64,000 bases of DNA from Siphonodentalium dalli. Taxonomy: Eukaryota; Mollusca; Scaphopoda; Gadilida; Siphonodentaliidae. A program made the position numbers and the translations under genes. The notes below the pieces were generated by a model that was given only the letters and a program-made list of their open reading frames with translations, did not search any database and was not told where the DNA came from. Below are positions 3,201 to 57,300 of the stretch, one piece after another (position 1 is the stretch's first letter; each line of letters starts with the position of its first letter). Where the stretch lies: assembly GCA_032622095.1 (NCBI GenBank), contig CP136064.1:274373614-274437613 (forward strand), read 5' to 3'.

Positions 3201-6200
3201 GTGCTATGTGATGACGTCGGGCTGTATCTGCGTCGCGTGACACAATTTTAACACGGTGCATTCGTGTTCCACAGTGTAAATGCATATAAGACTATATTGT
3301 ACATGATTTCATATAATAATCGCACGAGGAATTTTCAACCGTTGGACGTCAATGACGACACGACATACTTAATGTTGACAATTCCTCCTAAAATGTGATA
3401 ATTGTATGGTGTTGTCTATTTTATATTACCTGCTCGAGACTGCTCGATTATATTGTCTCAGTTCGCTGGTTAGTATAGAGCGACGTGACGTTCGATTGTT
3501 GAGTTGGATTTCCGGGTCTCATGGTACTTCGACGCTATATATATGTCTGTATATGTTGTATTATGTTGTATATTTACCTGTTCGACGCTATATATATATA
3601 TGTCTGTATATGTTATATTATGTTGTATATTTACCTGTTCGAGACTAGCTCTCGTTTTCTCTGACTCGATGGTGATTATAGCGACATGACGTTCGATTGT
3701 TGAGCTTGATTCTCGGGTCTCATGGAAGCTGCGACGCTCCTCAATCATAACTGTCTCCATTTCCTACAAGCAAGGTGAATTTTTTTTTTATAAACCGTAT
3801 ATATATAATATAATTTATCTTCAATTACTCTTAATTCATCTGTTGACCCTTCCTTATCCACCGACACATTATATTAATGTTCGATGCTTCGATTTCTGCT
3901 TGGTATCGCTTAGTCTATTTGTCCATTTTTCCATCCGCCCTATTTCTAGCACCCGGCTTATCTTCTCACAACCATTCACGTACGCCCACCACATAACCTT
4001 ACACCACAAACTAACAAATATGGCAGGGCTTATTAATGTTGGGTACTTTGATTTGAGCTTGCTATCTTTCATGAGTTGTCCATCTCGACCTTCCACACTG
4101 TTGCTAGCACACATTGACACTTCCCACACCACTCACATAGTCACAACCTCCAAAACACCCATCCACATAATATTAATGTTCGGTAACTTGATTTACGCTC
4201 GTTATCTCTTCGTGATTTGTCCATCTCTTCTCGTGTCCTTCTGCTTCACCCAGAGATCTCCCTCATACTATTCACATCACCCCACCCACCCCACATATCA
4301 TAATAATGTTGTGTACGCTTGGTATCCCTTCGTGATTTTTCCATCTCTTCTCGCGCCCTGTTTCTGGCATCCAGGGATCTCCCTCATATTCACCAAACCC
4401 CACCCACCCCACATAACATATTAATGTTGTGTGCATTGACTTCTGTTTGGTACCTCTTCACTGATTTGTACATCGCTTCTTACGACATGGTGCTTGCATC
4501 CGATATCTCCCGCATATTCACCCTACCCCACCCACCCACACCACATATCATATTCACCCTACCCCCCCCCACCAACACCACATATCATATTCGCCCTACC
4601 CCACCCACCCACACCACATATCATATCAATGTTGTGTACCTTGACTTGCGCTTGGTATCTCTTTACTGATTTGTCCATCTCTTCTCGCGACCTGCTGCTT
4701 TTATCCAGTGATACCTCGAGTGACATAATATCACTCTCCAGCTTCTTCCTGATGCGCTGGACTTCCCCTCGCTGCTTGATCTCCACCTCCAGAGTCTGGT
4801 TCAATGACTCAATGGATCGCTGATGATTTCGCCTGGTGAGATAAAATAGTTTTAGAATGACGTGGGGGTGACTGGCCCGACCAGCACAGTGGTGTCCTAT
4901 CAACATGATCGGTCTGAAACTTGGCCGAATAAATATCCAGTGGCAAGACATTGGACGAACACTGTACTGTCATGTTTTCTCATTTAGTTAACTCAATAGT
5001 AATTGCAGGTTGAATTCTAAACTTTCGAGATGAAGCTTACATTCTCAGATGAAGTTAAAACTTCGAGGAAGCATTGATATATACATGTTAATATCGAACA
5101 AATAACTAAATTTCAACATTTAAAAATTAAGTTGCAAAAGGAATCAATAGTTCGACTTATATCACAATGATAATATCGAAAAATCTGATTTCGTAATACA
5201 CGCAGGAATTAGAAGTGAACAAACAATATGAAGTGCTATACAATTACGTAGATACATAATATATTTTATACCGGTATATTTAACAGCATATTATCCGCTA
5301 TATATACTGCCTGGCAGCTATTTCAATGGATGGTAGATCGTTGTAATGGACTGTGTGTAGTTAAAGATGCAAGTATTCAGGGCTTCATGGCAATTTTTAT
5401 AGAACAAAATTTTAATTCCTTATCAGGTACTAATGTATAAAATAACTTGTTTGGAATGAGAAGTGCCACGTGGTAGACACCATACTATTTGATTTTGAGT
5501 TTTATTTATCCAATTATATAATTTAGTTTCGATATATTATAGGGACAACAAAAATTTGTGTGTTAATTTTTCACTAAAAATTGCATTATTTGGCATAACT
5601 AGATCTCGATTATGTCACAATTGGTTGTCAACATTGTGTTATCCAAACGAAGATAAAACCTGTGTTAAATTAGATTTTGTATGTTGTTCTTGTAATTAGG
5701 TCTGGAACCCTGAATACATCGTTAATTTAGTTATGTTCAGTGTGTACCTTGTATTATCTAACTCCTCTTCTTTATCCGCCATCCTCTGTTCGACCTCTGA
5801 CCTCATCTCCGTTTTATCTTTGATAGCTCTGACGAGTTTGTTCTCCAGCTGACTGTTGTTAACGCTAGCCTCCTCCAGTGATGACAGTAGCTCGCGTTTC
5901 TCCTCCTCCACCCTCCTTACTGTTATATCGATGCCGCGGGTGTCGCGCCCTCCGTCATTAAGATGGTAGTTCAGCTCGTGCATTTCATCTGTGAAATAAA
6001 CGGTATTGTGACACCATACGAAAACCACAGCCCACCACATGATCACGTGCGTGTAGGAGTGATCCCGGTGGCTTATCGGCAAGGAGCAATGAGCTTTATA
6101 TACCGTCACAATCCATCCAGTGTCACCCTGTACATCAATTGCCCACGAATGCACACGATTCGTGTATTAGGAAAAGTGCGTCACGTGTAATGTTAGCTAT

Positions 6201-9200
6201 ACAAGTGGTTACTACGTGCGACTGAGTGATTTTACTGTGAAAATGACCATCTCTATGGACATTCCTTTCGGAATAGAACTGACAAACCATGATATGGCAC
6301 AGCCACCGAAATAAACCCAAAATCAAACCAAACATGTACGAATGTCAAACAGTGGAATAATGTGAGGTCTCACTTTTAGAGCATGCGGATCGTGCTGAGA
6401 TATGATTTATCAACTTACAGCTTGTTATATGTGACCCGCCATATCAAATCCAGTCGTAAGTCGGGATTTTTTTTACCCTGTGCCAATGCATTCTCGTATA
6501 TATGCGAGTCGACCATAGGTCGCCTCGCATATATAAGAGAATGCATTGGCCTAACAATTTTTGACAATTTTAATAATTTTTTCTTGTATTCTTTAACAAT
6601 TTTATAATTTCACCCATACAGAGCCCCAGACAAAATGAGCAGACGACATATGCTTCTATATGCTTCTATATATGTGTGGGCTCCCTGCAGGGTAATGGAT
6701 GTTTTTTATTTTATGTCCTAAAAATTGTAAGAAACATTTATTTTTAAAAAATGATAAAAAATTGTTAGGCCAATGCATTCTCTTATATATGCGAGGCGAC
6801 CTATGGTCGACTCGCAAATATAAGAGAATGCATTGGCACAGGGTATATAATAATAGATATGAATCGAGGACACATGTCCGGAAAAGTTTCTAACACAATT
6901 TCTAACTAAATTTTATTTAGAAATCTCATCACATCAGCGGGACAGTTTTAGGTGTTTTTAGAACAGAAATCTGCACGAAAACGTTCAGAACACACAAAAA
7001 AGTGGACCAAGAAGAACAACTCTATCACGGCACATTTCAGTTAAACTACAGATTCCCTCACGGTCGAAATAAACCACGTTTTATTTACAAAATAACTCTT
7101 TTTTGTCTTGAAATCGAGATTTATAAAAAAAATGCTGTTTTTGCTGTAATTGTGTCCTAGAAGATACAACTGAATTGTGTGTTAAACAGGTTATCATTAT
7201 ATTATACTCACCGATGAGCGTCTTGTTTTCTCGCCTGAGCACGGTGATAGTATCATGAAGCTCGTCATCATGTGATCTAGTTCGAAGGAGTTCATTGGCT
7301 GATGCCTTGCTCTCATTCTGAGCATTGATGACGTCGGCCGCTAGTTGCTTGCATTTGGTGTCCAGATCCTGAACATTTCTGTCGTGGTTTCTCTGCTTCC
7401 TCTCCGTCGCCGTGATAGTGGACGTCGCCTGTTCAAAATAAACATAAATATTAAAGATGTTCAGTCCGATTTGACACCATACAACCATCATAATTAATAT
7501 GTACATGTTCGATACAAGAAAATATGATATCTACACATCAGCATTAATATGAAGTTTTGCTGGCCAGATCACGACATTTTGATGTTTTTGCAGCATATAG
7601 GACAAATTCCGATGATCGTATTATAAAAAGCGGCCATGCTTATGATGTCCACAAACAGTAGATATTAAAGAGCGTTTTAATTACGAGCTTTGTAATCGTA
7701 TATTCGATGTATTACTCATGGATGACTTTTGTTGATTTTGGCGATGCATGTGTGATACACAGTGTGGTGATTACGTGGTGATTACAATAAATATTATAAT
7801 ATATAAATAATATGCATGTGTGATACACAGGGTGGTGATTACATTAATTATTTCACTCTCTTTTGCCTAGTGAGCGGAAATTGGCTAAAATTAAATTCTG
7901 AATAATTTGGCGTCAAATCGGACGGTGGATATTTAGTGTTCAAGAACATATGACGTCACATATAATACGGTCAGCCTTGGTGTAAATGATAACAGATTAT
8001 AATTTCGCAAACTGCCAAAAGCATTCTCGGTGAATTGAGGCCTACTTCTTTTGTTCAGGCATCACGTGTGCATTTTAGAACAGATATTCTCGTCTTTGCA
8101 AGTTGCGTTGTTTTTCTACCGGTAACCAAGGAAACGTTAGCCAGGTTCAGCAACACCAACATGTAACTTGTAACTTGTGTCGTCATTGCCAACGACAGTC
8201 ATAATGGAGTTCGCATTCGATTTGACACGGCATATAACACCACGCCAAACTCACCAGATCAAGCTGGGCCATGACGTCATCCAGTTCTCCAGCTATCCTC
8301 GACCTCGTCTTCTCTAGTGAGCTGACCTTTGACATCGCAGTCTCAGCATTCTCCTCGGCCTCCATCAATCGAGAATGGAGCTTGCGTCTGGAAATTAATT
8401 CACTCGATGAAAGACTCGGAAACACGTTGCATGCGTGAGAGTTGACGAGAATATATAGATATCTCACTGGCCTCACAAATAACTAGTGTATCTCCAACCT
8501 GAACCGCAAAATCGTAATGGTATATAGAGAGAACATTTATTAAAAAAATAATGATCCATCTATCATTATAAAAGTAAGCGAAATGTGTTAACAACTTGTC
8601 ACAGTCCTGTTGCTGGAACTGTATGGAGAACACTTTTGGTAAATATGTTTCCTCTCTTAATTTAATAAAAAATGTACTACATGTATGTACAGAAAACACG
8701 ACGCGAAGAACAGAGAAAGCATGCTATCCATCTTCCTTACAATGTATCGCGAATAATGTATCAGGTTTTCAATATTAGATATAGTTGTCGGGAATATGTT
8801 CTAAGAGAAAGAAAATGAAAGTGGTTAAACAAAAAAATCAAAGAAATTAAACACAACAAATACATATAAATAAACAAACAAACAATTACGAAGACAAAAT
8901 AAAATCGGAGACATTTTGTGTCGGTGTTATCAACCACTTACTTTGATTCTTCGAGTTCCTCAGCTCTGGTGGCGCCCTCTGATTCGTATTTCACGCGCCA
9001 TTGTTGACTCTCGTTGTTAACTCTCGACAGGGCGCGCTGCAGCTCAGCCTTCGTTTCGGCTTCGTCGTTGATTTGTTCTCGGAGAGCATCGACCTCGACA
9101 TTCAGATTGCGGATCTCAGTTCTCGCCTTGTCGAAATACTGCAATATAAACACGGGGCGTTAGATATAGAATACCCCTGTCGCATTATCTCACATTCCCG

Positions 9201-12200
9201 ATACATCTCTGTCACAAGACGTTTCCGGTTTAAACTTTGAAACATTTGTTATTTCTAACTCACAGTAACCTGCGTCACAATTGTAATCTTTATAACGGTC
9301 ATTTAAGAAGTGTGGATAGCTGCTATATTTGGAATCCATGCAGTGATGAGATATGTATTTGTTGTAGGATTTATTGTGACTAACGGCTGTCTCGAATTCA
9401 TGCAGTGATGAGATATGTATTTGTTGTAGGATTTATTGTGACTAACGGCTGTCTCGAATGCATGCAGTGATGAGATATGTATTTGGAATTCATGCAGTGA
9501 TGAGATATGTATTTGGAATGCATGCAGTGATGAGATATGTATTTGATAGTGGATGAGATATGTATTTGTAATTCATGCAGTGATGAGATATGTATTTGTA
9601 ATTCATGCAGTGATGAGATATATATTTGGAAATTCATGCAGTGATGAGATATGTATTTGTAATCTATGCAGTGATGAGATATGTATTTGGAATTCATGCA
9701 GTGATGAGATATGTATTTGGAATTCATGCAGTGATGAGATATATATTTGGAATTCATGCAGTGGATGAGATATATATTTGTTACATGACTTATTGTTCTT
9801 ACGAGTGAACGGGTTTATGTGCATTTGATGAACATCTAGTAAATAGTTGAGGTCTGTTCGAAGTTCAAAATCGGGACTGAATCGACCGATTTTCCTTGTA
9901 AACTTCAGTTATAAACATGATTGTTTTAACGATTACTCATTTTTTGTTTCGAATGGTAAATTTCCATAGCTTATGTACTAGTTTACCCAATCAGACAAAC
10001 ATTTAGATGTGTTTTAAACAAATTTAAAATCATATCCGCTTTGGGTTAGAGATTTGATTGATGACGTAGGTTCCTGGTTTTGAATCTAGTTATAAAAGGC
10101 TCACGGATGACAACAAGACCCACATCCTATTTGTTTTAGTTTGTTTGTTTGCTTGTTTTTGTTTATTTTTTGTTTTTTTTTGAGATTCTGAAAACAAGCG
10201 ATAACAATAGAGCGCCGGTAAATAGGCATGCGGATTAATATATGTCCAACAACCGGAACCGGAGAAGCCACGGAATTAACACGTGTAAAATATCGAGGGT
10301 ATATAGCTCGTGTTTTGTGACTGGTTTGTGGATACTTACGGAGGGATGCTATTTGCAGTTTGTGTTAGATAGATATTTAATGTTCCGGCCTCACGTGACG
10401 ACACGTGTGGCAAAGCTCGTTGGACTACTTAACGCACAATTGAAATCTAGCCAGGTTGCAAATTTATTTCTGCATTGATTATTCGTCTTTCCAAACTTTT
10501 ATGATCATACATTAATTTCAGACATTATTTTTTTAATTGTTTTATAACAAAATGATATTTGTTTTTATATATATGGGTCCCTTTTAAATATCATATTTTG
10601 TTTTCAACATGTGTTGTCAACAGAATAAAGCAGAACAACTCTTTTAATAATGTATTTCTAAAGCCATGGGCATAGTTGGTTTTGAAGATTTATTGTAGGT
10701 AGAAATCTTGTGTTCGATTGCTTTCTCAGGGTGCAACGATTAATCGCGATACATGTGCACGTATCGTTATTCTTTTTTTAAATTATTATCGCGATACGTT
10801 TTAACCGATGAATCGTAATGAGCTTATTCCCTCATTTTGATATATTTTGTCGACTACATGTATATTTCTTTAGTAGCTGTACGTATAGTAAGCATTGAAC
10901 AGTAGAAAACAGTGTCCAAATACAGGATGAAGTCACATGTTTCAGTGCGGCAACATAAACTTATGCACGTGATGGCATGCTAGTAGAAATGAGAAATCAT
11001 ACCAGACCACAACTCACAAATGAACTTTCGATAAATGTTCGAATCTCGTCAGCAAAATTCGCTATAGGTATTAAATCGTATCAATCGTTTAATTTGAAAG
11101 GAATTAATGGCACCTTAATGTTAAATCTGATATTCTATTGGGTTTCATATTATGCTCATGGGGCAATCTTACTGTCGTCTGTTCGTTCACAGATTGTTTC
11201 GCTTCCTCGACTCGGTCCATCAGTTGTTTCTTCTCTCTCGTTAACAGCTCAGTCCGCTGATCTGCCTCCTCGAGCTGTCGGGTCACGTGACTCATCTCTG
11301 ACGACATCTTTGTCTTCTGCATTTCGAGTTCGGATATCATTCGGGTTCCCTCGTCAATCGTCGCGTTCATATCGGCTATCTGCACTTCCATCTGCTTCGT
11401 TACCTTGTTAGATGCACCCTAAACATAATAAAGATTACAATTGAGAAATAGCTTTGGAGCAACTAATCACCGAGGTATTAATGTTCAAAAGTTTCAACAG
11501 TTGGAAATTTCATACCTGCCAAAACATTGATTGGAAATTTCACACCAACAATAGGTTGAAAATGTTCTTGTAGTTTGATTTTCAAACAATTTCTTGGGGG
11601 GGAATTAATTGTTTTTGGACCAATATTTGCATATTTTCCTATTTTTGGTAAAACTTTTGGACTGAAATGGTCATCAGTTGGAAATTTTCCAACCTCAGGG
11701 GGGGGGGGGTGACAGGTTGGAAATTTCCAACACTTGGAAAGCTTGTGTCCTGGTCCCTCCCCCGTGGCTTGACAAAAACTGCTAGTTACTTTAAGAAAAC
11801 AACACTGTCATACATTTGGTCAACGTTGTCATTGGAATTGTCATCAGTTGTAAATTTTCCAACCTAAGTGGGGTGTCAGGTTTGAAATGTCCACTCTTGG
11901 AATGCTTGAGGCTAGTCTAGATGCTAGGATTTTGCGATTTTCTTGTTCAGATTACAAAATTTTCCCACACCGGGCCGAACCATGGTCATCAGTTGGAGAA
12001 TTTTCAAACCTGAGGGGGAGTATGAGGTTGGAAATTTCCAACACTATAGGAAAGCTTCAGTTGAGGCCAGTCTAGATGCTAAGATTTGCGATTTTCTTGT
12101 TCAAATTTCAAAATTTTCTCACACCGGGCCGAACAAACATGGTCAGCCCGGTGTGTCGTGTGCATTTGTATGGAGTTAGACCACTAAATGTTAGGATTTA

Positions 12201-13764
12201 TGCAGTGTTTCAGGTTAAAACATCTGAATATTCTCATACTGGGACTATATAGAACCATGGTTTATGAATATATAGGATATTAGGCGTAAGAGCACTGATA
12301 TGTGCAAGGGGCTGTGCAAATGGAATTATGCAAAACTTGTGTTCGGACTGATTCTGATTCAAGGGGGGGGGGGTGCAGTTGGAATTTCCCAATGTGGACA
12401 CCCCCGAACGGAAACCCTCTAGCCACGTCCCTGGGACCAATCTATTGGTAACATGAGTTATCAACGTTGTGCAGGTGGTGGGATATTACGATTTACCTGT
12501 ATGATTTTCATTGAAGCCAGTTAAGCATATCGATGGTAGATCGAATTGTTCCAGCTTTTCGCTGGACGATATATTTAAACGTGTAGGTTTGGCGCCATGA
12601 CAAATGTACCGCCTAAATGGATCGCTGAACATGGCTATTATAATGTAAATAGTTCACGAATTCCACCAAAGTGTCATGTTAAAATGAACCTACAATTCGC
12701 ATAATACAAAGACGAATCACTACCGAGGTAACACCGGTTTACTTACGCCGTTTTTCTTGAAGTATGCCACTTGGTTAGCGAGTTCCTCAATGTCGTTTCT
12801 CATCTGGTTCTTTTCGTTCTCTGACCTATATACGGAAATAAATCAGCATAAGTCTCCGGGTTATATTTAAATTACGATAAAGACAGATGCCCGGTCTTGT
12901 ATGCGCGTTTTCTGTTCTGCCTATCTATTTTCACGAACGTTTTCTGGTAATAAGTGATTTATGCGACATTGTGCCGCACCTTTAAGATATCAAACACACT
13001 CAAACTGCATTCATTTCTTATATTTGTATACCATTTTTATAGTTTTCTGACATATGTCTGCAGTTCGGATATTGCACCATACAGCCATGTAATGTAGTTC
13101 TACATTTATATTCTACATGTGAATTATCGATGATAGGATGTGGCCGCGTGCTAAAAAACAAACACGCCCAGTTATTCTATATATAGCATTTAGTCATCTC
13201 GGTCGACAATATGTGAAGTCCTGTTATGGTGTATTTTACTGGATATACAAAGCATGACCCAATTGGCAGTTGACCAATTTGATTTATAGTAACACACACA
13301 CATGATATTTATTAGTTATTATTCTATTTATTGGCACATATACTATTGATCCACATGTTGCAACATCGACGATATAAGCTGGTTTAATTTTAGGCTATTA
13401 TAATAATCTTCAAATCGATGTTTCAGCCGTTAGTATAGGTATCAACAAGAGTGAACTTTTGGGATTGGTTAAGCATCTACACATGTACATAAACAATATG
13501 CCTTATGTGTTCTTGTATTGCATTGACAGACAGTGGAGTATATATATATTATACAGTGCGCTGTGTAATTTCTAGAAATCGACTTACTTGGACTTTGATT
13601 TTTGTGCTGCTTCGACTTGTGTGGTTAGTTCGTTAACGGCGTCCGACATCTTCTTTCTGATGGATGATATCTGTGTCTCATGCTGCATTTTATAGTCCTC
13701 CATCTCTCGTCGCAGTCTCCCGATCTCATGTTCTCTCTTCTTACTCACTTCAACCTGTCGTATG

Positions 13765-13834
<70 letters not shown>

Positions 13835-16800
13835 CCGCTGCTATCATTTCTATGTTGTTTATTATACCCAATTGGTAGTTGCACATAATAAATACAACAT
13901 ATATCAACATAAAGACAAATTTAACATGAGTAATCACGTACTATTGCATATACGTTCTCCTGAATTTACTGTCATAAAATCTCACTTGGTAGCTTTTGTT
14001 AGACATGTATATTGTCTCGAATGGTGAAGAAAGACCGGATCATGTCGCATATAACGTTTAACGTTTTCAATTTTTTATTCTGCATAATAAATGTGAACTT
14101 CTCATAATTTGTCATTTTTAAGAAACGAGGGCACGTTGCAATTATGTCCTTTACATAAGTTTCACGAATACTTTCGTAGGCCTGACATTCTAAGATGAAA
14201 TGATATTCTGACTCAATTTGTTTTGAATTACACGCAGAACACACCGCTGCTATCGTTTCTGTGTTATTTATTGTTATACAACATAGTGTTGTTTGTGTTG
14301 GTTTGGGTGTTTTGCAATATAGTAAACATCACTTCTAATCGTGAGACCGCTAGCTAACATATGATTGCATAGGAATGTGATAGTACCCACCAAGTATGGA
14401 TATATCAATTGATTTACTAGAATTCAACGAAGCTTCGAAAAGCAGCTATATGCTATATCATAAATAGAGGATCTACAACGAGTCCCCAGTTTATAGCGGA
14501 ATTTACAAAACGAGTCCAGTAAATTAGGTCTGGACCGAGCCTTTGGCGAGGTCCAGACCTAATTTACTGGACGAGTTTTGTAATTTCCGCTATAAACTGG
14601 GGACGAGTTGTAGATTCTATTTATTACATGATCCAAAACATCGACAAAACATACTTAAATCGACAAATGTGACGCGAAATTAACGTCGGCTTCTATAAGG
14701 CATGCGATGACGTTTCACGTAATTATTCGTCATTTTCCCGCGTAACGAAATAGTCCCAGATAAATACAGACTTTTTAGCGCATTTAATGGCGTATATTTA
14801 ATGACATAACTTTTCAAACTCTTCATTCGTAATAGTTTGTTGGAAAAATATTGGAAGCCATAGTATTTTGAGACGTAGCGTACGGAATGTTAACAGGTCG
14901 ACAAACCGGAAGTCAAAGGTCACCTGGGACTATTTCCTGTTATTAAACGAACGTTTAATATCACAATTTATAGAATGGGTTTATTGAATGGAATAAGGGT
15001 AGGATCATGTAATAAATGGCCTTTCGCAACTCAAATATTTCACTACAATTTAGATATTTAGGGAGAGATAATGTGGAAATACATTCTGGATACTATACAA
15101 CGTGTGGGGGACCCGCGTTAGCATAGATGTGGACATATACGGCACCAGAGTAACTGCAGCTAAAGTACCGACCACACTAATAATATGTTTAACACAAACA
15201 TAGGTCGTTTTTTTAACTTATTATCTGAACATTTCCCATCAATGAATATGAATCATTCTGCAATTTATTATCTTTTCGTATGTTTGTCGTATATTCCTAT
15301 AACCTGAACATCCCCCAAATGAATAATATACTATTCCAATGTATATCTTGATATCTGAATGGGATAATCCACTAAGTAAAGAACGGGTTAACAGATAATA
15401 TTTTGGTTGAGAGAATCATCCAATTACATCGGGATCACCGTGGAACATGTTTTATGGTCGAATGACCCCAAAATGACTCGTTCCCATCTACATGTCAATA
15501 TTAAAATTCATGACAAATGTTATGATGATCCTACCAAAGGTACAACCTGTAGTCCGTGCCAAAGGATTTAGTCATGCAAAGAGTAAAATCCAAGATGGCT
15601 GCTGGCGGCCATGTTTTTTTGGCCGAATGAACCCAAAATGACTCATTCCCATCTATATGTCAATATTAACATAACTGACAAATTTCACGATGATCAGACA
15701 AACAATACGGCCTGTAGCCCATGCTAATGGATTTAATTTTGAAATCCAAGTTGGCCGCTGGCAGCCATGTTGTTTTTTTTGCTGAATGACCCCAAAATGA
15801 CTCGTTCCCATTTACACGCTGATTTTCTCATAGACATGTTCACGAAAACATTCGACACACGGAATGGTCTACGTTTCTTATATTAATATCGTTGGAATGT
15901 TAATAAATGTTGTGTCAAAAGGTAACAACCGATGTTGTTGAAAGTTTCGGCATTGTTCTTCAAATGGGTGTGGTAGTCAAATATGTTATAAGTAGGAAAA
16001 TTGGCTTGAGAATTTCGTGTCGATATGTACGAATACATTCGACACAACAGAATAGTCCATAAAGTTGTTTAACGCAGGTATTTCAATATATATTGTGTCG
16101 ACAGTAGTAGTACACCGCAGCATGCCTTTGATTATGCCTTGAACTGATGCGAAAACCCTGTGCCAGTGCATTCTCTTATATATGCGAGTCGACCATAGGT
16201 CGCCTCGCATATATAAGAGAATGCATTGGCCTATCAAATTTTATATTGTTTTTTTTTATAATTGTTAAAGAATGTAAGAAACAATTATCAAAAATTGTTA
16301 AAGAATGTAAGAAATAATAAAAAAAAAAAATAATTGTTAAAGAATATAAGAAAAAATTATAAAAAAATCAAAATTTGATTTATGTTCCTATTGATTCGGG
16401 GACTAGCTTAGAGGTTTCAAATAAGCTGTGTTTACCTTAGGGAAATCTCGCTTCGTTTAATATTAATTTTGAATTCGGGACAAGGAAATGTTGTCCACAC
16501 TTCCTGTTTCAAGAAAGGGTACAAACGATGTTGTTGAAAGTCGCGTGTCTACTGCCCACCGTTTTAAGCACGTGACCATAAAACACACCTGAGCGGCTGT
16601 AGCTCCACCTTGCTCTTCGAGTTTCTCTGTGAGGTCATCTAAATCTCTAACCAATTCGTTTCTTTGTTTCTCAGCCTGAAATATGCAAAACGAAACATTG
16701 TTACCTGGAAGACGCACATAACACCTCATCGTGTACACGTTTACTGCCAATAGACGTGTGAGATTGTGATATCAAATAACCGGAATTTTGGTTTGTATAA

Positions 16801-19800
16801 AATATTGCCGCGAATATGCAAGAAAGAATTAATAAATTATCTATCAAATGTGACCCCGATGAATCCAGAACGGTATAATCATCCAGTGTTTGTATTTATA
16901 ATTGCAGTAGTCAGGGAATTTAAACTTCACATGAATCAGAGTACAAAATTTTCCCCATGAATAATATTTCCCGATGGAAAAATGCAGTAATAAAGATGCT
17001 GGTGAGCGAATATCTCTATAGGAAACGTGGTGATTATTATACGTATGAATCCTACGGGCCTATGACGATCTATATAGGGAACATGTGGAGAATAAGTATG
17101 AATCCCACTGGTCTGTACCAATCACTGTAAACACATACTCGCTCTCTTGCGGTTCGTTCGTTTTCATATTCGTCCTCGAGTTCGCTGAGAGTGACCTGGA
17201 ACTCTTTCAACTTCCGGTTGAGTTGAGCGCATTGGGTCTCTGTTTCTTCCAACTGGGTGCGTGTGTTGTTCAGATCTGAATCTTTCCTGAAATCAAAAAT
17301 ATATATTGGTTTCTGCAATTAAACATTATACATATTAAAACAGTCATTCACCAATAGAATAATATTTCCAAAATGAGCATGAATCAATGGAAGCAAGCAT
17401 CTGTGATCTGAAATTTATATTTTGGAATTATTTAGATGAAATAGGCCACGCTAGGCATTTAATGACGTGGTGAGTTGTCGACCATACTAATGCGTCCCCC
17501 ATGCGTAAGTTTTTTTCTTCTTAGATGAATATGAAAATGAAATCGACTAGCCAACCCGTACACGACAAGGTGCGTTTGTCGTATACATGGTGCTGGGTCG
17601 GTCGTAAGTTTATCTTCTGTTAAATATGTTGATGTAGTTACTCAGTCCACAATGTAACAACTCGAGCTTGAGAAAACACGGATGTGTTAATGTTCGTGGT
17701 GAGTTAACTAAGTTATGTGATATCCGTCATTCAGCCATGTATACGTGTATTAGTTGTGGGAATGCACAGTTATATGATGTATGTCATTCACTCATGTATA
17801 CTTTATTATTTGTGGGAATGCACAGTTCTATGATGAATGTCATTCACTCATGTATACGTGTATTAGTTGTGGGAATGCACAGTTCTATGATGTATGTCAT
17901 TCACTCATGTATACGTGTATTAGTTGTGGGAATGCACAGTTATATGATGTATGTCATTCACTCATGTATACTTTATTAGTTGTGGGAATGCACAGTTCTA
18001 TGATGTATGTCATTCACTCATGTATACTTTATTAGTTGTGGGAATGCACAGTTCTATGATGTATGTCATCCACTCATGTATACGTGTATTAGTTGTGGGA
18101 ATGCACAGTTCTATGATGTATGTCATTCACTCATGTATACTTTATTATTTGTGTGAATGCACAGTTCATACGATGTATGTCATTCACTCATGTATACGTG
18201 TATTATTTGTGTGAATGCACAGTTCTATGATGTATGGCATTCACTCATGTATACGTGTATTGGTTGTGGGAATGCACAGTTCTATGATGTATGTCACTCA
18301 CTCATGTATACGTGTATTAGTTGTGGGAATGCACAGTTCTATGATGTATGTAATTCACTCATGTATTTTATTATTTGTGTGAATGCACAGTTCTATGATG
18401 TATGTCATTCACTCATGTATACTTTATTATTTGTGGGAATGCACAGTTCTATGATGTATGTCATTCACTCACGTATACTTTATTATTTGTGGGAATGCAC
18501 AGTTCTATGATGTATGTCATTCGCTCACGTACACTTCATTATTTGTGTGAATGTACAGTTCTATGATGTATGTCATTCACTCATGTATACTTTATTATTG
18601 TGGGAATGCACAGTTCTATGATGTATGTCATTCACTCATGTATACTTTATTATTTGTGGGAATGCATAGTTCTATGATTTATGTCATTCACTCATGTATA
18701 CGTGTATTAGTTGTGGGAATGCACAGTTCTATGATGTATGTCATTCACTCATGTATACTTTATTAGTTGTGGGAATGCACAGTTCTATGATGTATGTCAT
18801 TCACTCATGTATACTTTATTATTTGTGGGAATGCACAGTTCTATGATGTATGTCATTCACTCATGTATACTTTATTATTTGTGAGAATGCACAGTTCTAT
18901 TATGTATGTCATTCACTCATGTATACTTTATTATTGTGGGAATACACAGTTCTATGATGTATGTCATTCACTCATGTATTCCTTATTATTTGTGGGAATG
19001 CACAGTTCTATGATGTATGTCATTCACTCATGTATACGTGTATTAGTTGTGGGAATGCACAGTTCTATGATGTATGTCATTCAGCCATGTATACGTGTAT
19101 TATTTGTGGGAATGCACAGTTCTATGATGTATGTCATTCACTCACGTATACTTTATTATTTGTGGGAATGCACAGTTCTATGATGTATGTCATTCACTCA
19201 TGTATACTTTATTATGTATGGGAATGCACAGTTCTATGATGTATGTCATTCACTCATGTATACTTTATTATTTGTGTGAATGCACAGTTCTATGATGTAT
19301 GTCATTCACTCATGTATATTTTATTATTTGTGGGAATGCAAAGTTCTATGATGTATGTCATTCACTCATGTATACGTGTATTATTTGTGGGAATGCACAG
19401 TTCTATGATGTATGTCATTCACTCATGTATACGTGTATTAGTTGTGGGAATGCACAGTTCTATGATGTATGTCATTCACTCACGTATAATTTATTATTTG
19501 TGGGAAGGCACAGTTCTATGATGTATGTCATTCACTCATGTATACGTGTATTATTTGTGGGAATGCACAGTTCTATGATGTATGTCATTCACTCATGTAT
19601 ACGTGTATTAGTTGTGGGAATGCACAGTTATATGGTGTATGTCATCCACTCACGTATACTTTATTAGTTGTGGGAATGCACAGTTCTATGGTGTATGTCA
19701 TTCACTCATGTATACGTGTATTAGTTGTGGGAATGCACAGTTCTATGATGTATGTCATTCACTCATGTATACGTGTATTATTTGTGGGAATGCACAGTTC

Positions 19801-22800
19801 TATGATGTATGTCATTCACCCATGTATACTTTATTATTTGTGGGAATGCACAGTTATATGATGTATGTCATTCACTCACGTATACTTTATTATTTGTGGG
19901 AATGCACAGTGCTATGATGTATGTCATCCACTCATGTATACGTGTATTATTTGTGGGAATGCACAGTTATATGATGTATTTCATTCACTCATGTATACTT
20001 TATTATTTGTGGGAATACACAGTTCTATATCATATGTCATTAAATCATCTATACGTGTATTATTTGTGTGAATGTACAGTGGCCTGTAGGAAATTACATG
20101 TGTCCATACTCACTTCCTTAAGTGCTCTTCGGTATCATGTAGGGCCCGTTCCACTTCATCGAGATTATCTTGTGTGGCTCTCAGATCCTGCTCCAGTTTA
20201 CGCTTCAATTTCTCGGTGTCACCTCTGATTTTCTTCTCGCGTTCGAAACAGCTCTCCATCTGTATAACATGATAATTTAAATATACGGAAAACAATTTCG
20301 TTTTGTTAGTTCGGACCCCGATGAGAATAATTTATGCCTCACTCAAAGCAACGATATTCGCATTCTGTGCGGTGCGTCTCCAACCACTAACAAACTGACA
20401 GCGTCGTGGAATGACACAACTTCTGAAAAGGACATGAACCCCAACATTAACAAACGAACGAACCAAATACCAACAACAAATTCATCAACCCTACGAGATA
20501 AAGGCTGGCTACAAAAAACAACCGTCCAATTACTCTACCATTCGGGATAAAGACTGGCGACAATTACTCAACACTTCGTGTTAAAGACTGGTGACAAACG
20601 ACAACCACCCAATCACTCAGCCCTCCGGGATAAAGGCTTGCGACAAACAACAACCACCCAATTACTCAACATTTCTGGATAAAGGCTGGTGACAACGAAG
20701 GGAATCACGTACCTCATTCAAAGTCGATTCGAGTTTGTTCTTGATCTTGTTGAGGTTGTTAACTTTATCTTGCTCCGACTTGAGTTCATCCATGGTTTTA
20801 TTGTGATTATCTTCCAGTGCCTTTCGAACCTTAGATAATTTACATAGATCTTCGTCTTGTTTGGTCAGCTCATCATGCAGACCCTTTATCTCGGTTTCTC
20901 TGGCTGCTTTCTCTTTCTCAACCTGTTGACAGACGTAAGCGTTGTGAAATGTTAAGTCGAATCGCAAGGGACCGTTGGGTTACTTCGAGTTATCCATGAG
21001 TTCGACGTAGCCAGTTCGACCATTAGGTGTTCCAAAAGATCAACCAGCAAATTAATTTCGACTGTTTGAAACTCCATTTATTAATTTGTAAGTCTGTTTG
21101 ACTAATAAGTTCGACGGAAGGCTGCCGAACAGTGCAGCAAATGAATCATCGGAGCTCAAGTTGAATAATGTAACAATCTCGTTACTAAATGCTCACTGAT
21201 GAGTAGTTCCCTTAGGAAATGTTCATAAAATAAATTCAACAAATGACCGCCTTTCCCGAACACCCATCCAGATGAATAATTGGACATTCCAATGTAAACT
21301 TTTATAACTGAATTGGAAAATTCATTTTGTCAAAAGGTTTAATTAGGACGTATCCAGCTAGGTAGTCGGACAGCTCTTTTAGGGGAAGCTTTGGTGGTCA
21401 AATTTCACAAATCGTTCTACTCTTTGTCAGACTCACAAAAGCTTAAAGGTCCACTTAATTGTCGACCCCGTATAACATTATATACAACATATTCCATATT
21501 ATATACCATTTGAAAGATGAAGCTCCAAAATATTGTATTACCAACTTATCCGGGTAAACATGTTGCTTTTGTCAAGGTACCGACGTGTTTGCTCTGCTTA
21601 ATTTGGATCTGGTCTGTACTGCCAGTCTATTATTCTCATTGGAAGGGGAATAACTCTATCACTTAGTTGTGAATTATTAGGCAGTATGGGGTAGATAACG
21701 GGGGAAGACTTGGTGTGAATCTGAGAAGACACTCCTAGGCCACAGTTATTCCACTTTCCGGTAGAATATATAAAAATGTTTGATTCCTCTTCCAAATGGT
21801 ATATAATATGAAACATGTTGTACATAGTGTGATCTGGGCATTCGGAAATTAAATGGGGCCTTTAATGTCAAATCAAATGGGGAATAAATAATAGGTTATT
21901 CGTTTGAGACGCACCTTCGTTATATGTGCGTCCATATCATCACAGTCCTGTTTTAAGTCATGTATCTCCTGATTCATCTTCTCTTGTTTGTCATTCGTCG
22001 TGGTTACCTGCCCCTCGAACTCCCCCAGACGATCCTCGGCCTCCTTCAGCTGTTGGTCATTCTCTATCTTCTGCTCCACCATAATCACGACCTTCTCCTC
22101 AAGGTCAGAGATGTGATCCTGTTCAGCTTGCAGCTGAAGGGCAAGGTCATCTTTCTGACACTGAAGCGTAACGTTCTGCTCTTCCAGTTCTTTTAGGAAG
22201 ACGAGTTTCTTCTCCATTTCTTCTCTCTGTTTAGCCATTTCTTCCTCTTTCTTCTGCATCTCTTCCTCTTCGCGTGCAACGTTTAACATCGGCTTGATCT
22301 GAAATTTTCAACTTTCATGATATACGTTTCATAACTGAGTAAAGACATCATTTCAATAGAGTAAAATGTTCATATATATACCTAGAAATCACCACTAATT
22401 AAAAGGGAAAACTTATTTTTCGACGATCTTCAAACTGATCGGTGGAGGTAGAACAGAGCCCTCGTCGCCAAGCTCCTGGTTATTGGTACCTGCTAACGAG
22501 CTCATGCGTGTAAACATTGAGTTGTGGGGGAAAATGAACTATCGTAAAAAAAAAGGATTAATTATATCTTAGTTATACAGTATTCGATAACATTGTGAAC
22601 TCACCTGAACGTAAAGTTTCCACCAGCCCCAATTCCTGAGTCCAAGCCACTTTCGGATGTTCTTCTGTATAAGTTCCAACCCAGTCCTATGGAAAGGTAA
22701 TAAGTTCAGTTTTCATTATGAATCATGCAACACAAAATTAAGAGAGGGCTATTGCTGATCGTGTCATAGTTATTGAGTAATTCTTAAAGTGAATATATCA

Positions 22801-39441: not shown

Positions 39442-39444
39442 ACG

Positions 39445-39690: not shown

Positions 39691-39700
39691 GCTCAGACGA

Positions 39701-48720: not shown

Positions 48721-48754
<34 letters not shown>

Positions 48755-48770
48755 TGTGACTGTGTGATAA
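47500..48770. repeat. Degenerate long tandem array, unit about 50-60 bp
   Basis: Recurring GTATAC(A/C)(T/A)GG(A/G)GTGACT, TATGGTCAT and GGTGTGTATGTATA blocks continue over about 1.25 kb and end in a (TA)n run at 48724-48750. The open frames on both strands derive from this. Confidence 0.7.
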
Positions 48771-48789
48771 TGGGTGGCTATCGCTTTCC

Positions 48790-49331: not shown

Positions 49332-49816
49332 AGGTACGGTTGGCCTTGGCGGTGGGTATCCTGTGAAAATATTTCCACCCGTCAAAAACCGCCACAAACA
49401 GAAAGAACATCAAAATGTAGACAGACTTTGTCCGTATACAAATAAGAAATATCGCATTAACAGTATGTTATTGTCATATGTTTGACCATTGTTATGTAAA
49501 CAAAAGCATAAAAAGTTACTTTTGTTTATATTATGATGGTAAACATAAAGAGCGTTCTTTGCTGGTAAATTCCTAATAGGGAGCTAATAAAGAGCGTTTA
49601 TGCCATTTGTGTGTGTTTAGCCAGTAGCATTGTGCTGTTTTCTGTAACACAATCAGGCTCTTGCTTAGGTAAAATATAGTAGGTCATTATGATAACATGC
49701 TGTTTACGCGATGGTCATGGTATATATGGACGAAACTGTAACGTTTTAATGTTTTTGCTGTCTACGGTGTTTGGAACAAATATGAATCTTTTCGACAATG
49801 AAGGCCAACCGTGCCT
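49332..49816. mobile_element. TTAA-flanked element (family C)
   Basis: TTAA at 49328-49331 and 49817-49820 flank AGGTACGGTTGGCCTT and AAGGCCAACCGTGCCT (one mismatch). 485 bp, no ORF of note. The AGGTAC start recalls family B. Confidence 0.75.
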
Positions 49817-49820
49817 TTAA

Positions 49821-51190: not shown

Positions 51191-51196
51191 TATTTA
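51191..51196 (-). terminator. Candidate polyadenylation signal of gene B
   Basis: AATAAA on the minus strand, about 135 nt after the predicted stop codon. A plausible short 3' UTR, but AATAAA is frequent in this AT-rich DNA. Confidence 0.35.
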
Positions 51197-51330
51197 TTTA
51201 CAAATAAATTAGAAATAGCTGGGTTATTAATCCTCGTGTTCTTGGATAGGTCCGACATCCTCTTATTCTGCAATTCTGCCTCCATATGGCTTCATCCGTC
51301 GGTAAGTCTTGTTGTAAAGTTCGTTTCGGG

Positions 51331-51380
51331 TCAGCATTTGTCACAAGTAAAACGGGTCACATGCGTCGTCGTGGATTTCA
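51331..51380 (-). CDS. Mhc: Mhc-B terminal coding exon 37 (tailpiece and stop)
   Basis: Acceptor TTTCCCTGTTTGTTCCAG then 50 nt. With the G carried from exon 36 (or 36') it reads VKSTTTHVTRFTCDKC and TGA at 51331-51333. Phase fits, and the length gives a short non-helical tailpiece as in other muscle myosins. The composition is family-variable, so identification rests on splice signals and position. Confidence 0.6.
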
Positions 51381-54300
51381 CTGGAACAAACAGGGAAACG
51401 TTACTCATAATATAATAATATGTATCACAACACACCCAACACACCACCCACAATACACATCACACCCAATACATGGCAGTTGCAATTGACAATAGCAAAT
51501 ACAGGTGAAAGAATATACATATATATGATGTGAGATTCAACCAATCATTGGCTTCAGTCATAGAAATATTGAGTTCTCCGAACGAGTAATATAAATCTAC
51601 CAGGTTCGTTCATATAACTCGAGGTGTTTCTCTTGCATTTTGTGATCAATAATTGCAGTACAACATTTAATTCCAGGTAATTGTTTACTTATTGAGCGCC
51701 GAAAACAGTCCAAACATATCCCCGTAGAGAAAATTACAGGAAATTCCTAGGAATTTCATTTTTTTACACAAAATCCTATTGAAATCCCGGAAATATCCCA
51801 GTTACAAATTAGATATAAATTAAGATATTCAGGATTGAATAACTGAATTTGGATGATATTCGGGAGTGACTAACTGTGAATTGAATATATATACTGTCGT
51901 GTAATACCGAAAAACTCCTGCCACCTCACTGGTATTTCATATTCAAAATATTTACGAAATACTCCTACTGTTAGTTTTGCACCCGACATTCTCCCGTGCA
52001 TAATCGATCATTTTTTTATAATTTTTTCTTACATTCTTTAACAATTTTATCACTTTTTCTTACATGTACATTCTTTAACAATTTTTAACATTTTTTTATC
52101 ATCATTTCTAATTTTCTTATCGTGGAAAAATTAGCTTCCAAACAAATTTCTCTTCCACTATTATCCAATGATATTCCCACCTATATCGCAGTTTTATTTT
52201 GGGATGTTGCCACTTTTATCCCGGTATATTCCTACTCATATATCAAAACTCTTTTGAAAGTCGATATACAACCATGCAGTATATCCTCATATCAATGGTG
52301 GTGCTATACATGTAGGTCTGGTACTACTTACCGTATTATAGCTTGAGGGTATCACTGGGCGTTATGATCTTTATTTATATTCCAGTGTCCGGGACTACTC
52401 ACCGTCTTTCTGTTGGTATATCCCCCGTGCGTTATGATCTACATTCCCCATGTTCGGGACCACTCACCGTCTTTCTGTTGGTATATCCCCTGTGCGTTAT
52501 GATCTACATTCCCCATGTTCGGGACCACTCACCGTCTTTCTGTTGGTATATCCCCTGTGCGTTATGATCTACATTCCCCATGTTCGGGACTACTCACCGT
52601 CTTTCTGCTGGACGGAAATAACCCTGCGCGTTATGATCGACTTTCCACTATGTTCGGGACTAATTATCGTAACTCTGATCAGACATCTCATATCCCCGTT
52701 CGTTCGGAAATGACTCCGGCCCCTGTTAGGGACTAATATTCCCTGCGCGTTCTAATCCCCGTGTTTGGCTCTATTTACCTCCCCATGCTCGGGACTATAC
52801 TTACCGTATCGATGGGATATCCTTTCGCGTTCTAATTTATATTTTACATCTCGTTTTCGGAACTACTTACCATATTTCTGCTGGGAGATATCCTTTTGCG
52901 TTCTACTGCGACATTGATCTAGGGCCATTTCACTGACGGAACCACGCCTTACTGGAACAAGCAGATACACGTTAATCAGAATAGAATAATATATATATCA
53001 CAACAGGCACAATACGCAACACACAAAAATCACAACACATCCAATATATTTCAGTTGCAAAATTGACAATAACATAAACAGGTGAAATAATAAACATATA
53101 TGATGTGAGATCATACCAATCATTGGCGTTCAGAAATACAAATATTACGTCCACCGAACGAGCAAAATAAATCTACCAGGTTCGTTCGTATAACGGGAAT
53201 CAGGTCGAGGTGTTTCTCTTTATAAATAATTGCAGTACAGCATTTAATTCCTAGTAATCTTTGACTTATCGAATTCTGAAAAAAGTTCAAACATATCCCC
53301 GTAGAGAAAATCAACGGAAATTACAATGGGACTTTTCGAAATTTCAAATTTCGACACAAAATCCCATTGGAATTTCGGAAATATCCACATTAGAAATAAA
53401 TTGGGATATTCAGTACAGGGGTGATTAACTAATTTGGATGATATGCGGGAGTGACTAACTGTGGAGATGGATAAGCATGCAATCAATACAGAAAAACTCA
53501 TTTCGCCTCACTCAGACAGCAAGGCTCACTGGTATTACATATTACAAATAGTCACGAAATTGTCCCATTAGTGTTGCACTTAACACCGACATTCTCCAGC
53601 GCATAATCGAGTTTAATGTTACCAATATTACGTTATAATCCCGACAAAATTTCTATTCCATTATTATAGAAGGATATTCCCACCTATATCCCTGTTTTAT
53701 TCCGGGCTGTTACCATGCACTTTTATCCCGGTATATTCCTACTAATAAACCAAAACTCTTTCGAAAGTCGACATGGATCCAGTATATCCTAACATCAATG
53801 GTAGTGCTTATACATCGTATTATTGCTAGAGGATATCGATGGGATCTATATTTAGCTTCCTATGTTCGGGACTACACATCGTCTACTGCTGGGAGGCATC
53901 CCTGCGCGTTCTGATCTACATCCAACGGTGCATGTAGCGACTGTGTGGCTGCAGACCCTCCCAAAACAAACTATTTGAAAGCTAAACAAATTGACAATTT
54001 TCGTGCAAATTGGGAGATATTTTCTGTTAAATTCGGGCAATTTTCGGGCAAATTGAATGGTATTTCAGGGGGAAATTGTGGCAAATTACAGTATTTTTCA
54101 CAATTCTGGCAGAATTATCACATTTAATGTTAATTTGAATCTATTTTGTTATTTATTGCTGTGTATATACGAGGTATATTCTACAAAAACTGTGTTACAA
54201 CAATGAATATAGCATCCAAAAAGTTCCCCCCACAAAAAAAAATAAAAAAAAATCGAGCGCCCGTACAGCAGCCCCCATGTTGAGGACTACTTACCGTAAC

Positions 54301-57300
54301 TCTGATGATCTCAGATATCCCTACGCGTTCGGCACGACTCCCCTGTTTGGGACTAATATTTCCCTGCGTGTTCTAATCCCCGTATTTTGGATATATTTAC
54401 CTCCCAATGATCGGTACTACTTACCGTATCGATGGGATACATACATAAGAGTTCTACTTTATATTTACACCCCGTACCGTGTTCGACGCTACTTACCGTA
54501 TCTCTGCTGGGGGATATCCCTGTGCGTTCTACTGCGACATTTCTCTAGAGCCATTTCACTGACGGAAGCACGCTCTACTGCGTCATCCAATTCTTGCTGA
54601 AGAGTGCGGCATTTTGATTGGTTGCTGTTTGCTATGGCTTCCTGTTAAAATTGAGTGACACATTATCAAGACATATCGGTGAGAAAAACCAGGTTATTTC
54701 TTATAAATACTAATTTAAGCCTTTTAGCCACGAACTATATCAGCGGTATTAGTCTCTATTAGCTCAATCATGTTGTTTATCGATTGATATACTAAATACT
54801 CATTGACGAGTTGTGACCTTTAGAAATGTTCAGATAATAAGAATCATTCTGCTCTTGTATTATCTGTTTTTCTATCTGTTGTCTGTTTTTATTACACGAA
54901 CACCCCTCTAAATGAATAACAGACCATTCCATTGTATACATGTATAACTGAATAGGATATTTCATTTACTAAATGAATGTGATGCGAAAAGCCACACATT
55001 AAGCAGGAACATGCATGACCACATATATATACTGTATACATTGGTAAAGAATATACTATTTTCATCAGAATTTCATGTTCATACAAAATAACATTTATGT
55101 ACATATAGTACTTATATAAATATAAATATTAATATTTATACTGCACACATAAATAGACACACATGTATAAATATGTGAATATAAATTCGCATATAAAAAA
55201 AAAAATATATATTAGTATACTATCGTAGTTGTATTCGTTTAAAGCATGTTTCAAATACATGTTTAATGCTAACGTTCTTCAATATGTGTATGTTGTCAAT
55301 ATCAAGGAGGCCACATAACTTCTCTAGTGAAGGGTTAAATAAATAGTATAAGTAAGGAATATATTTTCTTCTGATAGTGACAAAATGTTCGCAGACCAAA
55401 AGAATGTGAAACTAATCAGGTGCGAACAGCACATATTACATAATAAACTCTCGTTCTTTCGCTATCTTGGAAGCTCGTTTAGCAGTCAATGGTTTGCTTT
55501 CTAACTTTCACCAGGCTGGTATGAAATGCTGCTGTAAATCAAGATGGTAACGAGTAAAAGAAATCATGTTTAGATAACTCTGAGCTCGTACTCAAAATCT
55601 GAATCAAGCAAAACAACTATTAGTTTATTTTTATTTTTTATTTTTTTATTTGGTATCTGCAGATATAATTATACTGCATGGTTTATGTCGATTTTTATAG
55701 TTGAACATGTTTAACGTAGTTTCATTCAAGGAAATTCCACTGTGTTAATTTATGATCAGCTTCCTTCTCTGGATGAAGATCGTACCGCTATAATTGTGGA
55801 TCAAGAGTAATTGTACCGCTTTCAACTGTCTCATACTGAAATATTATTCCAAAACTGTTAAAATTGGTTCTGGATTCGAGATAACTTGAATCGACCAAGC
55901 ATTGTAGCAAAACGATATTCATAACGATAGGTTTCATATCAGATGGTTCGGTTTCAGAAAAGATAATCTATGACAGTCTATCAATCAATATGTAGGACCC
56001 AACACGCTATATGGGACCTATACCCCTCCATATTTTTGTTTACGTTGAACCTAAGACAAATGTTCTCAATTTCGACACACTCCCATCATGTCGTGACCAC
56101 ACCCAAAATATACACCATACCATACATGTTTAACATTAATAAGGGAGAAGAAAAATAACTAAGATATATAACTTGGGCTCACCTCTATTATCATCATCTC
56201 ATATTCATAATGTTCATAACTTGTTGTGTAAAATCAATGAGTATACATGAAAGCGAGGTTAAAATAAAATATGTTCCATCTATGACAGACGCTAAATATA
56301 ACACGAGGTTAATCGGTGAAGGCCAACTCAATTTGGAAACAAAGGAGAAAGTGTGTCAAACAATAAAATGACGACATCACGTTGATGCAAGTATCTTATC
56401 GAATTGTTAGCTAGCCATCATATATATGATAAATCACAAATAATGTCCGAATAACCAATATGACTGAAGTAGTAGCTAGCCGTCATGGAATTAATCGCAA
56501 ATGGTGCCTGACTAACCACTATGACTGAGTTGTGAGCAAGCCGCATTAGAACTAATCGCAAATAATGCCTGAATAACCACTCTGACTGAACTGAAGTGTG
56601 AGCGAACTATGAATGAATTGTGAGCGAGCCGCCATACAATTAATCGCAAAGAGTCTGAATAACCACTGAAACTGAATAGTGAGCGAGCCGTCATAAAAAT
56701 AAATCGCAAATGATGTCTAATTAACCACTACATGAATGAATTATGAGAAATCTGCCATAGAATTAATGGCAAATGATGTCCGAATAATAAAATCACTGAA
56801 TTTTGAGCGAGCCGCCATATAACTAATCGCAAATGATCTTTGAATAACCACTATATTAGTCACATACCGCTTCTTCAATGTGTTTCCTGTACTGTCGGAG
56901 CTTGGCCTGTAGATTATCAACGATGTCCTTACTCTTGCTTTGGTTGTTGGTTTCCTCCTCGACCTGGAACTCGAGGTCGCTCACTCGCCTCTCAGCTCTG
57001 CGCACGGCCTTCTGTGCATCGCCGAGATATTTCTTCTCGCTATCGAGTTCCATCTCCAAATCTACAATCTGAAACGAGAATGATAACCTTTTTTTACTAA
57101 ATACTCATTTAGTGGATGGTCCCTTTTATTATCGGAACTTTTCCCATCAATGAATAGGAAACATTATAAGATTGTATTATCAGTCAGTCGATCTGAATCT
57201 GATTATATATCATCATTATCCATCATCCATTATCCATCAACTGATTATATATCCTCATTATCCATCATCCATTATCCATGCATCATCTGATTATATATCC

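Follow-up and report, generated by a model that had tools for sequence, protein, structure and literature searches.

Exon edges copied with their splice sites into introns of muscle myosin genes in a mollusc-like genome resemble the mirages of amphioxus

Introduction

Repeats whose unit spans an exon-intron boundary have been described in amphioxus as mirages. They were reported in Adh3 (10-72 bases; Canestro 2002, as cited there) and in the globin genes BflGb6 and BflGb9, with units of 10-160 bases, and the data given in that report suggest no interference with regular splicing (PMC3087553); further amphioxus cases are reported for PGBD5 and troponin C (PMC3902484). Mirages had been presented as a possible lancelet trait. 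Here, we describe them in a mollusc-like genome, in a muscle myosin family and at about 7% of the sampled edges of unrelated genes. The window, that is, the whole stretch of 64,000 nucleotides that was analysed (G000:C4:274373614-274437613, in an assembly of 2.23 Gb and nine contigs), contains one muscle myosin heavy chain gene on the minus strand (gene A) and the 3' part of a paralogue (gene B).

As far as the amphioxus reports describe their mirages (PMC3087553, PMC3902484), the likeness is close: in our genome, too, the repeat unit spans the exon-intron boundary, donor as well as acceptor edges (3' or 5' exon ends) are affected, the units are minisatellite-sized (tens to about 160 bases), many AG and GT dinucleotides are intact, and copy number is unstable, which was seen here between paralogues only. 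The exon 32 unit of about 205 bases lies above the size range of 10-160 bases, and the 1.6-kb unit of exon 36 does not fit it. Unlike in amphioxus, the host is not a lancelet, up to 18-25 decoy splice sites occur in a row, five edges are affected in one gene family, and the frequency in unrelated genes was estimated; splicing is inferred here from sequence. An earlier note on this DNA knew of no standard class for such copies, which was wrong, as they match the mirages described in PMC3087553. The kind is already known, and what is new here is the host group and the frequency and scale.

Other systems share parts of this pattern. A splice-donor minisatellite was reportedly described in an interferon-induced human transcript (Nucleic Acids Research 1995, 23:1854; the gene is said to be IFI6/6-16 and the first author Turri). 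By the title, its sites serve the transcript, whereas in our case acceptors are amplified as well and the copies are known from DNA alone. Intron gain by tandem duplication is said to have been treated by Rogers in 1989, Zhuo in 2007 and Gao and Lynch in 2009, and reportedly for potato RdRp (PMC4974935); by their titles, these works likewise concern a local duplication carrying a splice site, but here no new intron interrupts an exon and the copies lie within an existing intron. Tandem exon duplication also leaves exon-derived copies in tandem in introns; those described here are partial and carry one splice site. Human minisatellites are reported to modify genes in segmental duplications and may form introns when they lie at exon-intron boundaries (PMC2812944). 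Expansion in recent paralogues, contact with exon-intron boundaries and the ability to alter introns are common to that system, as described there, and to ours; however, the human repeats lie in exons and may become introns, whereas here the exon has stayed intact and an intron that was already there holds the copies (PMC2812944). In a literature search based on titles and the beginnings of abstracts, with most subscription papers outside its coverage, no paper on mirages outside lancelets was recognised; one spider paper uses the word "mirage" for a transposon class.

Results

Exon edges duplicated in the window

Exon boundaries were placed using GT/AG dinucleotides and myosin homology (micro-exon 4 was not placed). 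Gene A begins with its start codon at 37918, reaches exon 34 at the left end of the window and has the Pfam domains Myosin_N, Myosin_head and Myosin_tail_1; exons 32-36 of gene B, the next paralogue, lie between 63.5 and 54.5 kb. Each edge was compared as an 80-base query (50 exon and 30 intron bases) with its own intron within 2 kb, and the 73 edges with at least 200 bases of searchable intron were counted, with a cut-off score of 30. Five edges reached it: the donor of exon 32 in gene B (B32, score 74), the acceptor of exon 3 (59), and the donors of exon 31 (52), exon 36 of gene B (B36, 47) and exon 32 (37). The donor edge of exon 2 was below the cut-off with 24, and the next-best edge scored 21. 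Taken with the paralogues, these queries bear out what the earlier note had seen, namely that the edges of exons 2, 3, 31, 32 and 36 were copied with their splice sites into the adjacent introns. The features are as follows; TRF stands for Tandem Repeats Finder.

21..37918, minus strand: gene A, a myosin heavy chain of the striated-muscle type, covered from its start codon to exon 34, with the 3' end beyond the window (Pfam and PDB matches, exon table)
36660..36803, minus strand: exon 2 of gene A, the duplicated part being its 3' edge with the donor (exon table)
36554..36623, minus strand: decayed copy, within intron 2, of positions 64-138 of exon 2 (72% identity)
35084..35240, minus strand: exon 3 of gene A (exon table)
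35267..35437, minus strand: two decoy units of 85/86 bases upstream of exon 3, each with 26 intron bases including the AG and 59 exon bases (84% and 86% identity to the real edge)
4640..4819, minus strand: exon 31 of gene A (exon table)
3847..4509, minus strand: intron 31 sequence in which the 3' edge of exon 31 and its donor region are repeated five times (exon matches of 78, 81, 81 and 69%; the fifth found by edge query, 66%)
3635..3763, minus strand: exon 32 of gene A (exon table)
3430..3536, minus strand: copy of exon 32 positions 26-129 with the donor in intron 32 (78% identity)
3528..3590, minus strand: second, nearer repeat of the exon 32 donor, with a decoy GT 57 bases past the real GT, in frame and open (90% identity)
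63408..63536, minus strand: exon 32 of gene B (exon table)
62999..63304, minus strand: two exon 32 edge copies in gene B (63202-63304 at 89% and 62999-63105 at 79%; TRF array 62995-63511)
54497..54641, minus strand: exon 36 of gene B (exon table)
52873..52954, minus strand: copy of exon 36 positions 62-143 with the donor (88% identity)
51380..54580, minus strand: 1.6-kb tandem duplication that runs from within exon 36 across its intron (51380-52954 being the copy of 52951-54580)
52386..52660, minus strand: 65-base array with weak similarity (71-78%) to the exon 36 donor edge (TRF and edge comparison)

The units measure 58, 65, 85 and about 120 bases, with about 205 bases for exon 32 and 1.6 kb for exon 36. 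A TRF array at 35186-35437 covers the exon 3 edge region, and gene B holds one more exon 32 copy than gene A. Exon 36, which the earlier note had numbered in one series with exons 2-32, belongs to gene B instead. The spacing of 65-200 bp that it gave for the copies is not general, since the exon 36 copy is part of the 1.6-kb tandem duplication. The 65-base array sits inside the same duplication; it was looked for in phage records and had no match there. The gene spans of the window contain 25 TRF loci with a period of at least 10 bases, one of which lies inside an exon.

Copy number and intron length differ between paralogues

For one exon, the top PDB chains were 1dfk, 1b7t and relatives (209 bits) and 3i5f (201 bits), followed by 3jbh (180 bits) and the first Myosin-4 entry (152 bits). 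We take 1dfk and 1b7t to be scallop myosin and 3i5f to be squid myosin; the host myosin is closest to these mollusc entries, and the host appears mollusc-like. A motor-domain exon had at least 16 near-full-length matches (81-100% identity), all on contig C4, and the exon 3 query at least 21 genomic matches. At least 16 close paralogues lie on this contig, at 274.19-274.67, 275.3-275.5, 221.3-221.5, 288.9 and 291.7 Mb; in the eleven at 274-275 Mb, one motor exon is 95-100% identical. The muscle myosin family looks unusually large.

In 21 genes, the exon 3 unit (85 bases: 26 of intron with the AG and 59 of exon) ranges from 1 to 19 copies when the real edge is counted. It is found three times in gene A and in the 274-Mb genes L001-L006, 7 times in L008, 10 in L007, 19 in L009 and 5 in L010, the counts for L007 and L010 each including one partial unit; the largest number of decoy acceptors before exon 3 is 18 (L009). 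Beside the real edge, L011 has one weak partial match; in the remaining nine genes no unit other than the real edge was found. The exon 2 duplication, put forward in the earlier note, is weak in the window (score 24, 72%) but clear in L011 (13 decoys), L007 (17 units) and L012 (19 units), where a unit of 58-59 bases, 34 of them exonic, forms arrays. Exon 2 itself was outside the fetched pieces of L007, L012, L008, L016, L017 and L020, the last four of which are uninformative on this exon.

The 3' exons behave similarly. Clear copies of exon 31 were seen in gene A and in 11 of 15 further sets, with one fragment in L023, whose piece does not reach exon 31. Exon 32 is copied in gene A and in every one of the ten 274/275-Mb sets, with weak copies (64-66%) in the 288- and 291-Mb genes. 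Of the ten 274/275-Mb sets, nine have the long exon 36 copy, as does gene B; L044 lacks it. A 65-base unit with 34 exon bases of the exon 36 edge forms 25 decoys in L042 and 19 in L043; several matches were found in the 291-Mb gene and one weak edge-like match in the 288-Mb gene. The three 221-Mb paralogues have no copy of any of the five edges (exons 2, 3, 31, 32 and 36), while most 274/275-Mb genes carry such copies. Copy number varies widely between near-identical genes.

Exons 2 and 3 lie 2919 bases apart in L009 with its 18 decoys, 1882 in L011 with 13 exon 2 decoys, 808-1439 in seven two-decoy genes, and 731-1144 in the three decoy-free 221-Mb genes, which supports the earlier suggestion of intron growth. 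The distance of only 808 bases in L001 indicates that other changes besides decoys affect intron length. Neighbouring exon 3 units of L009 are 0.65-0.96 identical, with a mean among decoys of 0.825. In a tree of exon 3 (157 columns), 12 of 17 inner branches were open; this tree is too weak and short to place or date single events. A new intron inside exon 3, the only exon examined for this, was not found: an uninterrupted match of 149-157 bases is present in 21 of 21 genes.

Splice dinucleotides and reading frames of the decoys

The AG is kept in 34 of 35 aligned exon 3 decoys of L007-L010 and in 14 of 14 of gene A and L001-L006. The GT is kept in 47/48 decoy donors of exon 2, 43/44 of exon 36 and 21/21 of exon 32, but in only 24/50 copies of exon 31, below the 34 expected from overall identity. 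Because the copies of an array are not independent, the splice columns of eight arrays were compared with other columns of the same array; the fraction of neighbouring column pairs that equalled or exceeded the splice pair in conservation was 0.19, 0.63, 0.54, 0.60, 0.26, 0.15, 0.70 and 0.30. An apparent excess of dinucleotide retention over identity squared (34/35, 47/48), considered as a sign of selection, vanished in this comparison. The decoys show no sign of selection on the splice dinucleotides.

Among 49 exon 3 decoys in 11 genes, 47 shift the frame or introduce a stop; an open, in-frame extension exists for just one decoy of gene A and one of L008, and a functional exon 3 extension was rejected. 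Reading through exon 2, a stop precedes the first decoy donor in both genes in which decoys were found (L009 and L011); the other six tested genes had none at the threshold. For exon 31, a stop precedes the decoy donor in 10 of 12 sets with decoys; for exon 32, the sequence is free of stops up to the first decoy donor in 5 of 11 such sets. Scored with the window's own splice matrices, the decoys had medians of 10.9 (exon 3 acceptors), 11.1 (exon 36 donors), 5.2 (exon 2 donors) and 1.1 (exon 31 donors).

Edge copies in unrelated genes

As unrelated genes, we used matches to the chaperonin family PF00118 (CCT; 53 matches) and the adaptin family PF01602 (30 matches), of which only 68 places were examined, near-duplicates being skipped by eye. 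From the first 16 loci, 12 were used (L051, L052 and L059 were long single-frame matches and L054 a near copy of L053); 40 further loci were all used, and 16 of 18 more (L119 and L124, cut beside exons, were left out). These 68 loci have 136 edges, two of which (the L083 acceptor and the L121 donor) had too short a flank, so that the full sample comprised 134 edges. Exon ends in these loci were inferred with the window-derived splice matrix and may be off by some bases, L064 being the least sure.

A copy of the edge within 650 bases was found at 8 of 104 edges in 52 loci, the L083 acceptor being among those 104, and at 9 of 134 edges (five donors, four acceptors) in all 68, so that the phenomenon is not confined to myosins; its frequency in this two-family sample is near 7% of edges. 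The donor edge of one chaperonin-gene exon (L079, C2:20444358-20446089) lies inside an array with 39- and 157-base periods, and its best edge copy scores 73 over 79 columns, which indicates a recent origin.

The copies in the unrelated genes hold 15-117 exon bases. In the 15 cases compared, the exonic part measured 15, 33, 42, 43, 45, 54, 56, 59, 62, 78, 81, 84, 104, 104 and 117 bases, the two 104-base cases (exon 32 of genes A and B) probably being one event. All 15 copies are partial, in agreement with the truncation on the far side described in the earlier note. Since the far ends scatter over 15-117 exonic nucleotides, there is no common anchor; the splice-junction-anchored expansion that the note had considered is not supported, as unit ends are scattered and the decoy GT/AG are no better kept than other columns.

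Comparison of exon edges with intron DNA

The frequency of duplicated edges relative to intron DNA depends on the control. When copies on any side were accepted, 9.9% of 1545 intron segments of the unrelated genes and, in the window, 10.0% of 1263 and 22.9% of 1500 segments were duplicated; the pooled ratio of edges to segments was 0.41 (0.18-0.75), or 0.60 (0.24-1.39) without dispersed repeats. This control counts each copy of a long array and is therefore unfair to edges. In a one-sided control, only the first copy was counted, with and without segments recurring in other loci. With all repeats, the 9 of 134 observed compare with 6.8 expected (ratio 1.34, 0.58-2.46). In the window, 4 of 72 edges compare with 4.5 or 2.6 expected. 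Outward duplications of all kinds were flat with distance from the edge (0.042, 0.062, 0.052, 0.045, 0.083 and 0.072 of tiles), and an exon-interior control gave matches in 3/51 and 2/29. The earlier note had proposed to refute its idea by setting edges against arbitrary intron segments: edges do not exceed all segments, and they exceed them about fourfold when the count leaves out dispersed repeats and is restricted to first copies.

Discussion

The edge copies are likely mirages, i.e. the outcome of ordinary local tandem duplication and copy-number change, tolerated because the copies fall on the intron side. Slippage or unequal exchange would duplicate about 55-210 bases (once 1.6 kb) with random ends. 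A duplication lying within an exon would be removed by selection, while one across a single edge would leave the original edge at the exon and all extra copies on the intron side, and the messenger RNA would stay the same provided that splicing pairs the sites nearest the exon (exon definition). Later unequal exchange would let the array grow or shrink, consistent with the copy-number spread observed among paralogues, and the decoys would then drift mostly without coding constraint, as the observed frame shifts and stops suggest. The result would be longer introns with rows of strong splice sites that are probably unused. A local tandem process that seeds decoy splice sites, as the earlier note proposed, is thereby supported; the occasional new exons it also expected were not seen.

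Several observations weigh against this reading. Purely random placement is called into question by the one-sided control after removal of dispersed repeats, in which 2.1 edges were expected (ratio 4.4, 95% interval 2.0-11.3), and by the 9 of 24 TRF arrays that lie within 35 bases of an exon edge, compared with 1.65 for intron-only placement. Many decoys score like real splice sites. The exon 32 donor at +57 is in frame, nearly identical to the real donor and preceded by an open 19-codon insert in gene A and L021-L024, which makes it the best candidate for real use as an alternative splice site. Finally, the assumption that splicing would ignore the decoys is taken over from the amphioxus reports.

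The excess near edges could mean that a nucleosome border, R-loops, paused splicing or transcription-coupled repair starts tandem duplications there, and the distribution of non-dispersed outward duplications points in the same direction (9/134 flanks at offsets -20..20 compared with 3/134 at 60..120, 4/133 at 120..200 and 3/133 at 200..300). We nevertheless regard such edge-biased seeding as unlikely. The outward rate of all duplications is flat, the ratio falls to 1.34 with all intron repeats and to 0.41 against any-side segments, and the window alone gives 4 of 72 edges, with 2.6-4.5 expected. If seed units are allowed to straddle edges, 5.9 of 24 arrays are expected near them (P = 0.10), and two of the nine near-edge arrays, those of exons 33 and B33, are one array in both genes. 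Furthermore, exon-derived copies would diverge on one side only and should therefore be recognisable about twice as long, which could explain an excess of up to about twofold. As the ratio runs from 0.4 to 4.4 depending on the control, enrichment at edges is unproven; an edge bias is possible. That some copies are functional alternative splice sites under selection is improbable, despite the high median scores at exons 3 and 36, the open +57 donor of exon 32 and the first exon 3 decoy of gene A, which gives an open, in-frame extension of 57 codons. The equivalent extension contains a stop in all six other two-decoy 274-Mb genes (L001-L006), all 18 decoys of L009 shift the frame or stop, the +57 site is out of frame or absent in L025-L028, the GT/AG columns are not specially conserved, donor medians are low at exons 2 and 31, where the exon 31 GT is often lost, and genes that are nearly identical have widely different copy numbers. 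Alternative exons are a known feature of muscle myosin genes, and the copies stand in tandem beside their exon as after the tandem exon duplication that yields mutually exclusive exons; however, all 15 are partial (15-117 bases of exons 107-231 bases long), their far end being missing and with it the second splice site of the exon, so that this origin is very improbable. Hardly more credible is a false repeat expansion in the assembly. Tandem arrays are hard to assemble, but the units recur in many paralogues, the same structure occurs in unrelated genes on several contigs, and the L009 decoys differ from their own exon by 7-36%.

Understood as mirages arising by ordinary tandem duplication, the copies provide a simple source of intron growth. 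They also offer a natural experiment on splice-site choice, with near-identical exons preceded by 0, 2, 6, 8 or 18 strong decoy acceptors. More speculatively, and with considerable doubt, exon edges might be true hot spots, duplicated several times more often than unique intron DNA, with a mirage at about one edge in fifteen and a few decoys, such as the exon 32 +57 donor, recruited. If so, the splicing machinery would routinely ignore rows of near-perfect decoys, and mirages, instead of being peculiar to lancelets, would be a way in which introns grow widely among animals.

Other repeats in the window

Tandem arrays start 11-34 bases from the edges of exons 8 (30417-30527), 20 (20485-20695), 21 (17726-20080), B35 (56432-56853) and 33 (2332-2386); that at 17726-20080 has a 56-base unit in about 42 copies. 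They were considered as mirages and rejected, since edge scores were at most 20 and the junction is seemingly not contained. The scores were 13 for the exon 21 and B35 donors, 18 for the exon 8 acceptor and 20 for the exon 20 donor, the exon 33 acceptor was outside the best 20 edge scores, and at exons 8, 20 and 21 the sequence was inspected directly.

Palindromic elements with inverted arms occur at 2958-3176, 6474-6845, 14460-14624, 32448-32583 and 62532-62750; the copies at 3.0 and 6.5-6.8 kb are related to each other, and the elements look like small inverted-repeat transposons. A 45-base minisatellite is present in gene A (948-1490, 12.1 copies) and in the equivalent intron of gene B (60657-61064, 9.1 copies). 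Between the two genes lies an inverted repeat of about 350 bases with 78% identity (40005-40352 and 41989-42317), and between its arms are 22-base tandem repeats at 40490-40601 and 41148-41205.

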